64,000 bases of DNA from assembly GCA_944324945.1 (NCBI GenBank), contig CALUYE010000001.1:434001-498000 (forward strand). Direction: 5' to 3'. Shown here piece after piece: positions 16,876-50,179 of the stretch (positions are counted from its first letter, which is position 1; every line of letters begins with the position of its first letter). A program made the translations under genes and the position numbers. This stretch comes from Candidatus Gastranaerophilales bacterium. GTDB lineage: Bacteria > Cyanobacteriota > Vampirovibrionia > Gastranaerophilales > Gastranaerophilaceae. The notes under the pieces are model-generated. The model was not told the DNA's origin. It saw only the letters and a program-made list of their open reading frames with translations, and searched no databases.

Positions 16876-16890
16876 TTAAAGTATGATTTT

Positions 16891-17007
16891 CTAGGGTTCC
16901 GCAAATTATTTTGGCCATGGTCCGAGAGAAAATCCGCAAAAAATAATATTTTTTGCGTACACGGAGGGATAAAAACCCGGGAGACTTTTGAATCTCCCGG
17001 GTTTTTA
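16891..17007 (+). promoter_or_regulatory. Guanidine-I (ykkC) riboswitch with terminator
   Basis: The conserved ykkC blocks appear in order: CTAGGGTTCCGC (16891-16902), GGTCCGAGAGAAA (from 16919), then ACACGGAGGGATAAAA-CCCGGGAGA (from 16960). The last block, ACCCGGGAGA, pairs with TCTCCCGGGT (about 16993-17002), followed by a T run, giving a terminator that competes with aptamer P3. Ligand binding should therefore prevent termination and switch on the downstream exporter gene. The downstream SMR/Gdx gene is the standard partner of this class. Confidence 0.93.
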
Positions 17008-46500: not shown

Positions 46501-47280
46501 ATGAAAAAAATCAAATACGCAAAATTAAGCGAAACGGAACTTATTTTAAAAGCAAAACAAGGCGATGTTTATTCAAGAAACGAATTGATTAAGATGAATA
46601 TGAAATTAATTGAAAATATTGCTTTAAAATCAATTCAAACAACAACTCTTACAAAATCAGACCTCATTCAGGAAGGAATTTTCGGGCTTGTTAAAGCTCT
46701 TGAAAAATTCAATCCTTCTCTTGGTTTTAAATTTTCAACTTATGCTTCCTGGTGGATTAAGCAGGCAATGTTTAAAGCAATCTCCGAGCAATCGTATGCT
46801 TATAATATTCCCGTTTATGTACAGGAAACATTATCAAGATTTAAAAAAACAAAACAGGAAATGGAGCAAAAGAGCCAAAAAGAAGTTTCAAACTATGAAG
46901 TAGCAAAAAAATTATCCATAACAAAAGAAAAAATAGATACATTCTTAAACGCTTACACAAAAGCCTTGTCGATTGAATCGGGAGTTGTGTTAAGCGGAAA
47001 TAAAGAATTGAGTTTTTGTGAAATTATAGAAGACGAAAAACAAAACGTTGAGCGCGAAGTATATGATATTGAATTAAAAGAACAAATTCATTGTGCACTT
47101 AATTATTTAAAAGAAAAAGAAAAAAATGTAATTGTTTTAAGATTCGGACTTGAGGATAAAGAAAGAAAAACTCTTGAAGAAATCGGAAACAATTTTGGCG
47201 TTACTAAAGAATGTATCCGCCAGATTGAAAAAAGAGCGCTTAATAAAATGGCGTTAAGGTTGAACTTCGCACTCGGCTAA
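46501..47280 (+). CDS. Sigma-70 family RNA polymerase sigma factor (group 2/3)
   Basis: 259 residues, lacking region 1.1. Region 2 is RpoD-like: DLIQEGIFGLVKALEKFNPSLGFKFSTYASWWIKQAM (2.1-2.3) and SEQSYAYNIPVYVQETL (2.4/3.0). Region 4 is EKNVIVLRFGLEDKERKTLEEIGNNFGVTKECIRQIEKRAL. It resembles alternative SigA-type factors of Cyanobacteria more than FliA. Placed between a kinase-like gene and the Met-rich micro-ORF, near the flagellar operon. SD AAAGGGG. A perfect 16-bp inverted repeat lies upstream. Confidence 0.92.
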   Translation: MKKIKYAKLSETELILKAKQGDVYSRNELIKMNMKLIENIALKSIQTTTLTKSDLIQEGIFGLVKALEKFNPSLGFKFSTYASWWIKQAMFKAISEQSYAYNIPVYVQETLSRFKKTKQEMEQKSQKEVSNYEVAKKLSITKEKIDTFLNAYTKALSIESGVVLSGNKELSFCEIIEDEKQNVEREVYDIELKEQIHCALNYLKEKEKNVIVLRFGLEDKERKTLEEIGNNFGVTKECIRQIEKRALNKMALRLNFALG

Positions 47281-47300: not shown

Positions 47301-47329
47301 TTGACAAAATTTTTTATTTAACATATATT
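47301..47329 (+). promoter_or_regulatory. Consensus promoter of Met-rich micro-ORF
   Basis: TTGACA (47301-47306), 17-bp spacer, TATATT (47324-47329). Confidence 0.75.
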
Positions 47330-47349
47330 AATCCCCATAAGGAAAAAAT

Positions 47350-47436
47350 ATGTTAAATAATTCAATTAAATTCATGTATATGCAAATGATGATGCAAGGC
47401 TTTATGTCAGGCAGTAATTATTTTGCACGAATGTGA
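47350..47436 (+). CDS. Met-rich 28-residue small protein
   Basis: ATG 47350 has AAGGA 7 nt upstream. The 28 codons include 8 Met (positions 1, 9, 11, 13, 14, 15, 19, 28), with core FMYMQMMMQGFM. It has its own consensus promoter (47301) and strong terminator (47457), making a complete tiny transcription unit. It could be a small membrane or metal/oxidant-sensitive peptide, or a leader peptide attenuating the gene at 47519. I know of no family match. Confidence 0.6.
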   Translation: MLNNSIKFMYMQMMMQGFMSGSNYFARM

Positions 47437-47456
47437 ATTAAAATACAAAATAATTA

Positions 47457-47486
47457 AAAGCCTGACAGTAATTGTCAGGCTTTTTT
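47457..47486 (+). terminator. Terminator after Met-rich micro-ORF
   Basis: AAAAGCCTGACA and TGTCAGGCTTTTTT form a long stem with a short GTAAT loop. Confidence 0.92.
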
Positions 47487-47518: not shown

Positions 47519-48871
47519 ATGAAATTGGATAAAATAAATTTAAATAAACAAAATAACAACCCTTCTTTTAAATCAACAAACCCTTTTATTTCAAATACTT
47601 TAAGCGGCGGAGCCAAACTTGCCGATTTATTTATCCGCTCTCAGGAAAATTTATCATCAACAAGATTTATACAAGATACCGCAACAAACTGGCTTCCAAA
47701 GGCAATTTTTTCAAGAAGCAAAGCTGATTTTGCCGAGATGAGTTTTTTGGAGTTTTTGGAATCGGGGATTTTTTATTTTGCGTCGCCGATTTTAGGAGAA
47801 AAATTATTCAGAAACGTAATTTTTAAAAATTTTCAGCCAAAAAATCTTAAAAGTGCAATAAATGAGCAAATTCCAAAATCCTTAAAAGAAATTACAACTA
47901 ATCCCAATTTATCAAAAGCAATAAAAAATAATGCAATAGCATCAAAAGCGGGTATAATTCTGGCATGTACGGCAATTCCCGTTGCGGAATACACTCTAAG
48001 CTTTGCAAAAAATCTTTTTACCCTAAAAGCGTTTAAAAAAAGTAATTTTAACAATATTGCAAACCTGGACAAAGGAAAAGCGGAAAAAGAAGATAAAAAA
48101 CAACAACAACAAGTTGAAAAAAGCGCAAAAAGCCATCTTAAAAAAGCGGCCGTTTTATCTTTGGCAGGGGTTGCTATAGGTTCCATACTTGCCCTAAAAG
48201 GTGCAAAAAGCGATAAATTGATTAATTTATCAAAAGCAATAATAGAACCGGGACAAGCGCTTTCAAAAGGAATAAGTAAATTAGGTATAAAAAATGAAAA
48301 ATTAAATAATACCCTATCAAAATTCAGTCTTGACTTTTCAAACAATAACGGCAAACTTGCTCTTGGCAAAGGACAATTGGCGCTAACTGCAATTTTAGGG
48401 CTTTTTGGTTATTCAAAAGCGGCATCGGACAGAGGAAAGCTTGATGTGGCGGAAGTTTGGACAAGGGTTCCGCTTGTTGTATTTTATACAATTTTTGGAA
48501 GTGAGTTGTTTGAAAAAGGTTTTATTAATATTTTAAATAAATTAGGCAAATGCAAGGATTTAATAAAAAAAGACGCAAAAGGAAATATTTCGATTCCCAA
48601 AAGAACGCAATTGCCCGAAATCGCGCAAAAGCTTGCAAAACAAAACAAAACCCTGCCTGAAAACGAACTAAATAAGCTTGTTAAACAAAAAGCGTTTATA
48701 ACAGGGGTTCCATACGCATTCAGCTTATTGTTTATGGGTTTCACGCTAAGCGCTATAACAAGATTATGGACGCAATACAGATACAATAAACAAAATAAAG
48801 AAACCAAAAATGATACTTTGATTTTTCTTGGGAAAAATCTCCCCGAGGCATTTAAATCTTTTTCAAAATAA
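47519..48871 (+). CDS. Unknown Lys/Asn-rich membrane-associated protein with PSFKS motif
   Basis: 450 residues. The N-terminus is Asn-rich with NPSFKSTNPF (SFKS at 16-19) instead of a signal peptide. Several hydrophobic helices follow: ASKAGIILACTAIPVAEYTL, AAVLSLAGVAIGSILALKG, LTAILGLFGYSKA, VPLVVFYTIFG and PYAFSLLFMGFTLSAITRL. No known domain recognised. Likely an integral membrane protein. SD AAGGA. Confidence 0.7.
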   Translation: MKLDKINLNKQNNNPSFKSTNPFISNTLSGGAKLADLFIRSQENLSSTRFIQDTATNWLPKAIFSRSKADFAEMSFLEFLESGIFYFASPILGEKLFRNVIFKNFQPKNLKSAINEQIPKSLKEITTNPNLSKAIKNNAIASKAGIILACTAIPVAEYTLSFAKNLFTLKAFKKSNFNNIANLDKGKAEKEDKKQQQQVEKSAKSHLKKAAVLSLAGVAIGSILALKGAKSDKLINLSKAIIEPGQALSKGISKLGIKNEKLNNTLSKFSLDFSNNNGKLALGKGQLALTAILGLFGYSKAASDRGKLDVAEVWTRVPLVVFYTIFGSELFEKGFINILNKLGKCKDLIKKDAKGNISIPKRTQLPEIAQKLAKQNKTLPENELNKLVKQKAFITGVPYAFSLLFMGFTLSAITRLWTQYRYNKQNKETKNDTLIFLGKNLPEAFKSFSK

Positions 48872-48919: not shown

Positions 48920-50179
48920 GTGGAAGATTACAAAATTAAAGCCGATGAAATTGTTGAAAAAGCACAAAATGCCATCAAAGATAAGTTTGATGAAATAGAT
49001 AAAATAGCGGAATATAACCAGAAAAAAGTTCTTGATGCTTTTTGTAAAAATAAAATAGGCGAAGAACATTTCTACACTGTAACAGGTTACGGGCATGACG
49101 ATTTAGGACGGGAAGCGCTTGATAGAGTGTATGCTGATGCGTTTAAAGCCGAAGCTGCAATTGTGCGCCCTCATTTTGTTTCGGGTTCTCATACCATTGC
49201 GTGTGCTCTTTTTGGCGTTTTAAAATACGATGACAGGTTGGTTTCAATAGCAGGAGAACCCTATGATACCATGCAACAAATTATAGGTTCGAGACCAAAC
49301 TGTGATGATTTTGAAACAAGTCTTATGGGCCATGGGGTGAAATACTCTGAAGTACCACTTTTAGGGCTTGATGTTGATTATGAAAATATTGAAAAATACC
49401 TTCTTTCCGATACAAAAATGGTTTTAATCCAACGCTCAAGAGGTTACAGTTCAAGAAAACCGTTAAATATTGATGATATTGAGCGTATTATCAAAACAGT
49501 TAAAAATAAAAATCCTGATATTTGCTGCTTTGTTGATAACTGCTACGGGGAATTTTTGGAAGAAAAAGAACCGATTGAAGTTGGTGCCGATTTAATTGCT
49601 GGAAGTTTAATAAAAAACCCGGGCGGCGGGATTGTAGAAGCGGGCGGGTATATTGCAGGTAAAAAATATTATGTTGATTTAGCGGCAAGAAGACTTACAG
49701 CCCCCGGAATCGGCGCTATGGGAGGCGCTATGCACAATCAAACGCGCGTTATTTTACAGGGTTTTTTTATGGCACCTTCTGTTGTGGCGGGCGCTTATAA
49801 GGGAATAATCCTTGCTTCAAAAGTTTTTGAAGATATGGGATATAATACTTTTCCTAAATCAAGCGAAAAAAGAACCGATTTAATCCAGACGATTCAATTT
49901 GAAAATGAAGCGCAACAACAGGCGTTTTGCGCCATGATTCAAAGACATTCTCCGATAGAAAGCTACTTAACCCCGATTCCTGATAGTGTCCCCGGGTATG
50001 ATTGCGATTTATTAATGGCGGGGGGAAGTTTTATTGAAGGTTCCACTATAGAACTATCGGCCGACGGGCCTGTTAGAGAACCCTGGTCAATATATATGCA
50101 GGGAGGTTTGAGCTATTATCATGTAAAAATAGCTCTAAAAGGCGTTGTTGAAGAAATTTTGAAATTAAAAAAATTATAA
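48920..50179 (+). CDS. PLP-dependent lyase, aluminium-resistance/Met-gamma-lyase-like family
   Basis: 419 residues. Fold-type I PLP enzyme of the group annotated as cystathionine beta-lyase-like protein involved in aluminium resistance. GYGHDDLGREALDRVYADAF, VRPHFVSGSHTI, VFVDNCYGEF-type Asp and Lys in AGSLIKNPGGGI (Schiff-base Lys) are recognisable. The substrate is probably a sulfur or related amino acid; not established. GTG start with AAAGGA upstream. Confidence 0.88.
   Translation: MEDYKIKADEIVEKAQNAIKDKFDEIDKIAEYNQKKVLDAFCKNKIGEEHFYTVTGYGHDDLGREALDRVYADAFKAEAAIVRPHFVSGSHTIACALFGVLKYDDRLVSIAGEPYDTMQQIIGSRPNCDDFETSLMGHGVKYSEVPLLGLDVDYENIEKYLLSDTKMVLIQRSRGYSSRKPLNIDDIERIIKTVKNKNPDICCFVDNCYGEFLEEKEPIEVGADLIAGSLIKNPGGGIVEAGGYIAGKKYYVDLAARRLTAPGIGAMGGAMHNQTRVILQGFFMAPSVVAGAYKGIILASKVFEDMGYNTFPKSSEKRTDLIQTIQFENEAQQQAFCAMIQRHSPIESYLTPIPDSVPGYDCDLLMAGGSFIEGSTIELSADGPVREPWSIYMQGGLSYYHVKIALKGVVEEILKLKKL

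Follow-up and report, generated by a model that had tools for sequence, protein, structure and literature searches.

It is known that the trp leader of Escherichia coli (trpL) combines a short ORF, tandem control codons, an antiterminator and a terminator that exclude each other, and a starvation logic; in mycobacteria, poly-cysteine leader attenuators carry a run of codons for a sulphur amino acid in the leader ORF. The anatomy of leader-peptide attenuators has been described for trp and his (PMC1183508), and in 2010 such leaders were known from Proteobacteria and Actinobacteria only, the Firmicutes being then added (PMC2965389). The unit located at positions 47301-47486 of the window (i.e., the whole stretch of 64,000 nucleotides under investigation, corresponding to G000:C1:434001-498000 in a 1.92-Mb genome) is, by its anatomy as read from the sequence, a leader-peptide attenuator. 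Its Met-rich mini-gene almost certainly represents a leader peptide switching on the downstream gene 47519 under methionine shortage. The full explanation, that is, a ribosome-mediated, Met-sensing transcription attenuator of 47519 whose target product probably aids methionine acquisition, is very likely, and the attenuator itself, apart from the function of the protein, can be proposed with still greater confidence.

All the elements of the unit lie on the forward strand. A putative sigma-70-type promoter (47301-47329) is formed by TTGACA (47301-47306), a 17-nt spacer and TATATT (47324-47329), matching the consensus at 11 out of 12 positions; 70% of the homologous leaders have an exact TTGACA in the 90 nt that precede them, vs. 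3% of random stretches. Downstream of it, direct reading disclosed a Shine–Dalgarno (SD) sequence, AAGGA (47339-47343), an AAGG-type SD being present in most of the aligned relatives, and a Met-rich ORF (MLNNSIKFMYMQMMMQGFMSGSNYFARM) extending from the ATG at 47350 to the TGA ending at 47436, whose 28 codons include eight Met (counting the start), three of them consecutive, and whose position is kept in 81/82 members of the clade. Met codons 9, 11 and 13–15 make up the control region (47374-47394). Still within the ORF, segment 2 (47405-47425, comprising TGTCAGGC and AATTATTTTG) represents the 5′ half of an antiterminator and covaries with its partner, segment 3 (47446-47467, the 3′ half), whose portion 47456-47467 doubles as the 5′ arm of an intrinsic terminator (47456-47486, also detected on the opposite strand). 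The terminator hairpin (47456-47484) has a 12 bp stem and a 5-nt loop (GTAAT), is followed by a T-tract and shows compensatory changes in 55 relatives, and the leader RNA as a whole is more stably folded than any of 200 dinucleotide-shuffled versions (z = −4.3). An SD-led short ORF with a codon run for a single amino acid and an intrinsic terminator between leader and gene are accompanied by an antiterminator incompatible with the terminator, and one that a ribosome on the control codons would leave accessible. The promoter, the SD, the 28-codon ORF with its eight Met and the strong terminator are all located where the preliminary description of this locus had placed them.

As for T-box and SAM riboswitches, the Rfam covariance models gave four matches in the window (a guanidine-I riboswitch at 16880-16985, with 81 bits, two tRNAs and the SRP RNA), none of them at the leader locus, and a riboswitch or a T-box was discarded on this basis. 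Just upstream of the attenuator (46501-47280), the window harbors a short primary-type sigma factor (RpoD/SigA-like), whose best model is the cyanobacterial RpoD, with a score below the cut-off of that model.

The many genomes of the order that were sampled made a comparison possible: 135 distinct homologues of the 47519 protein were collected from Ca. Gastranaerophilales, on contigs mostly labelled Candidatus Gastranaerophilales (Melainabacteria), and the upstream regions of all of them were read. The first scoring assigned 77 of them to a Met leader (L102 on a spurious ORF), 53 to a tandem-Trp leader, and five to no leader or a short one; when these five and L102 were read again by eye, all but L058 turned out to be Met-rich, with no MMM run. 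A Met-rich leader is therefore located upstream of 81/82 Met-clade homologues, and a tandem-Trp leader (WW or WWW) upstream of 53/53 Trp-clade ones, counts that overstate independence since the leader-bearing sequences are related. An MMM run together with at least six Met (the strict criterion) was found in 73 of the 82 Met-clade genes and in none of 331 control genes, and WW in all the 53 Trp-clade genes vs. 4/331 controls; runs of three or four Met occur in 74/76 scored Met leaders, and runs of two or three Trp in 53/53 Trp leaders. The protein tree has a branch with a support of 100 that separates all the Trp-leader proteins from all the others. The copies found on contigs titled Muribaculaceae, Fusobacterium, Clostridiaceae or Clostridia (L081, L093, L095 and L099) are of the Gastranaerophilales type and lie inside the family tree, and these contigs are probably mislabelled bins.

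A search with the peptide itself retrieved one clear relative, in G026 (E 0.004), 110 nt upstream of a 47519 homologue; a sigma-factor-like C-terminus also precedes the leader in this genome. The genes adjoining the 47519 homologues vary between genomes, which indicates that leader, terminator and gene together are the unit. The locus had been presented as self-contained, a view that has to be abandoned, given that it is always tied to a gene of the 47519 family and that its terminator would act as the switch; as for the conservation of the peptide in relatives, what is kept is the run of control codons and the RNA-pairing sequence. A covariance-model search of the genome harboring the window gave 47301-47486 as the one strong locus, and the weaker matches that were read contain no Met leader apart from L184. 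In this case (L184/L200, G046:C21:20906-22567), another leader, MNNFIIKTQNSSQKHSTTTMMMCCCCMMRMRSAGNFCCF, with its terminator, is located before an orphan protein other than that of 47519 (495+ aa). Of the 192 genomes of the order, 181 harbor homologues of that protein, and nothing similar to the leader was found upstream of the 29 others examined.

The antiterminator of the window (47405-47412 pairing with 47460-47467, and 47416-47425 with 47446-47455) reaches −18.5 kcal/mol vs. −17.2 kcal/mol for the terminator. Across 55 aligned Met leaders, double compensatory changes affect 8/8 consensus pairs of the terminator; in the antiterminator, 85.7% of the cells are paired, vs. 26–52% when the pairing is slid by 1–3 columns, 65 double-change cells were observed vs. 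28 expected from shuffles, and the pair 101:172 is G-C in 28 leaders and A-U in 27. Since both structures covary, the 5′ arm of the terminator covaries with two partners. The energy of the antiterminator duplex lies below that of shuffled ORF ends both in Met leaders (z −3.7) and in Trp leaders (z −3.0), the latter value referring to the 40/53 Trp leaders for which a good terminator was retrieved; the automatic picking of terminators failed or was poor in about one quarter of the Trp leaders, excluded from this energy test, and in one Met leader. If the codons up to 47404 are masked, the nascent RNA folds into the antiterminator. In the absence of a ribosome, the full leader has the terminator in its minimum-energy fold, and the antiterminator fold also forms in a transcript ending before the 3′ arm of the terminator, which makes the default state uncertain when translation is lacking. 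On the basis of footprint estimates, a ribosome on Met codons 13–15 would cover the RNA up to about 47400-47406, leaving segment 2 free, and a ribosome at the stop would cover roughly 47420-47448, blocking the antiterminator and leaving the terminator free.

The ORF, the control codons, the two exclusive covarying structures, the target gene and the avoidance of the sensed residue discussed below, all supported by the sequences, suggest the following scheme. Transcription would begin just before the leader ORF, with a ribosome trailing the polymerase. With ample Met-tRNA, the ribosome would pass the Met codons and reach the stop at 47434, hiding much of segment 2 and the beginning of its partner; segment 2 being masked, segment 3 would pair with segment 4 (the terminator) and transcription would end. 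When charged Met-tRNA is scarce, we infer that the ribosome stalls on Met codons 9–15, which would leave segment 2 (47405-47425) free to pair with segment 3 (47446-47467); once the antiterminator is formed, the terminator would not form in time, and 47519 would be transcribed, i.e., induced by starvation. The product would be a Met-poor, helical orphan protein, most likely located in the membrane and probably helping to acquire methionine. The same scheme would apply to Trp in the sister clade.

The composition of the regulated proteins supports starvation induction independently of the RNA, in that each clade avoids the residue that its leader would sense. Trp-clade proteins contain just four Trp in 21,687 residues (0.02%, vs. 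0.73% in the background and 0.67% in the Met clade), and Met-clade proteins contain 0.70% Met (vs. 2.13% in the background and 1.29% in the Trp clade), i.e., about one third of the normal content. It has been reported that the enzymes synthesizing several amino acids, Trp in particular but not Met, are poor in the amino acid that they produce (PMC4209129).

This avoidance also bears on a different reading of the same RNA switch, according to which a ligand such as free Met or SAM might cause the Met- or Trp-rich peptide to stall the ribosome that synthesizes it, as in a TnaC-type nascent-peptide arrest. The arrest site could be the Arg-Met found just before the stop in 88% of the Met leaders (mostly CGA-ATG, 47428-47433 in the window) or the late single Trp of 45% of the Trp leaders. 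However, the late RM is missing from some Met leaders of the same genus (L002 and L007), the runs of control codons vary in number, place and clade, in contrast to the conserved pairing segments, and a protein poor in the sensed residue is what one would expect from induction by starvation; we regard such an arrest as improbable. Given that one codon only specifies Met, and one only Trp, synonymous changes cannot separate the sensing of codons from the sensing of amino acids. Candidate roles for the late Arg-Met or Trp are those of a further control codon, of an arrest site and of an RNA element, and the simple attenuation model does not explain the late CGA-ATG.

Methionine is readily oxidised and binds copper, and a peptide with eight Met in 28 residues might accordingly be a functional microprotein, either sensing copper or oxidants or playing a role in the membrane, as the preliminary description had considered. 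The former would not explain why a Trp run replaces the Met run in the sister clade, and the peptide, short and interspersed with Gln, is unlike a membrane microprotein; moreover, its C-terminal half follows the RNA pairing and the unit invariably adjoins the same gene family, which makes a functional microprotein extremely unlikely. It is just as hard to credit that the product of the locus is a small RNA whose 3′ end lies at the terminator, and that the ORF is incidental. Even though promoter and terminator bound a transcript of about 150 nt, and terminated attenuators do release such RNAs, the antiterminator is conserved, the linkage to the gene is strict, and the runs of Met or Trp codons are conserved across divergent RNA sequence, contrary to the loss of the frame with retention of the RNA that had been envisaged for an sRNA. 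Sensor peptide, membrane microprotein and stand-alone sRNA were all discarded owing to the swap in the Trp clade, the RNA pairing and the gene linkage, and an attenuator for 47519 is the one, among the three readings originally offered for the peptide, that is strongly supported.

The gene that this attenuator would regulate (47519-48871, + strand) encodes a Met-poor orphan protein of 450 aa, probably a membrane one, on which profile searches and an AlphaFold model are available. The model is all-helical (pLDDT 89), and the sequence has five or six hydrophobic segments, moderate only. No Pfam or NCBIfam match at cut-off, transporter domains included, was obtained for it, and the comparison of its fold with the PDB gave no convincing match (best Foldseek E 0.04, VIA Z 6.0), a result that does not by itself make the fold a new one; a transporter identity, searched for through both sequence and fold, found no convincing match either. 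The family matches 62 of the 244 sampled genomes of the phylum, all 62 belonging to the same order, about half of whose genomes do not possess it. The N-terminus, as in many orphan proteins of the order, among them many neighbours in relatives, harbors an Asn-rich stretch ending in a PSFKG/FSG-like motif, which has low confidence in the model and is possibly a sorting or interaction signal. Distant paralogues of about 350 aa (L022-L024, L027 at G000:C5:108601-109152, L028 and L029) are devoid of a Met or Trp leader. A methionine gamma-lyase family protein (48920-50179; PF06838, E 2e-171) is encoded directly downstream of 47519; an operon joining the two genes was rejected, their adjacency not being conserved and a possible promoter lying before 48920.

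Concerning the function, the genome harboring the window gave no detectable match to the families of MetH (PF02574), MetE (PF01717) and the lipoprotein MetQ (PF03180); among the genomes tested, family matches were obtained for MetH in 1/50, for MetE in 0/30 and for MetQ in 0/20, control genomes being positive, and 15 of 26 Trp-leader genomes have no trpB above cut-off. These data favor uptake or salvage over biosynthesis, an idea that a Trp-sensing gene in genomes unable to finish Trp synthesis also fits, and the class of the leader (Met or Trp) points to the purpose of each branch of the orphan family. Methionine acquisition has, in our opinion, about an even chance of being the role of the 47519 protein; its PF06838 neighbour, which is catabolic, counts against it, though their adjacency is not conserved, and so do the failure to match any known transporter fold and the moderate character of the hydrophobic segments. 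More tentatively, considering that MetE and MetH are not detectable in nearly all the genomes tested, the family might represent a new membrane class for acquiring amino acids, with a Met-specific and a Trp-specific branch whose substrates would be given away by their attenuators, and a main methionine route of its carriers. It is also quite conceivable, at somewhat less than an even chance, that the attenuator is right and the role of the protein under starvation is not uptake but something else (e.g., membrane remodelling or dormancy), an alternative concerning the functional half of the explanation only. The orphan nature of the protein, with no known transporter fold, and its non-conserved neighbours are in line with it, whereas the division of the paralogues into a Met and a Trp set, both of them poor in the cognate residue, fits a substrate-specific role better than a general response.

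In the papers searched, we found neither a description of a Met leader attenuator, although one may exist elsewhere, nor any report joining Gastranaerophilales with leader peptides; the Met-sensing attenuator proposed here would thus belong to a phylum for which no such report was found. It would also offer a natural pair, i.e., two sister branches of one orphan family with leaders sensing Met and Trp, respectively, and a specific, testable substrate prediction for a gene of unknown function in common and poorly understood gut bacteria that are relatives of cyanobacteria. The near absence of Trp in the Trp-regulated branch would represent an unusually clean case of selection on proteins made under starvation.

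The his, leu and ilv leaders and the hisS leader of Firmicutes (PMC2965389) belong to the same class of mechanism and sense other amino acids. Met T-boxes and SAM riboswitches likewise control methionine genes, often through terminators, but in their case tRNA or SAM is itself the ligand of the RNA and no leader ORF is involved. The mycobacterial poly-cysteine leaders differ from the Met leader in carrying Cys rather than Met, and in organism and target. The four traits of the E. coli trpL would all recur here, and its TrpL peptide is much resembled by the leaders of the Trp clade (e.g., LNRNWWRL); however, the target in this case is a single orphan helical gene rather than a biosynthetic operon, segment 2 of the Met leaders is located inside the ORF, and the phylum is a different one.
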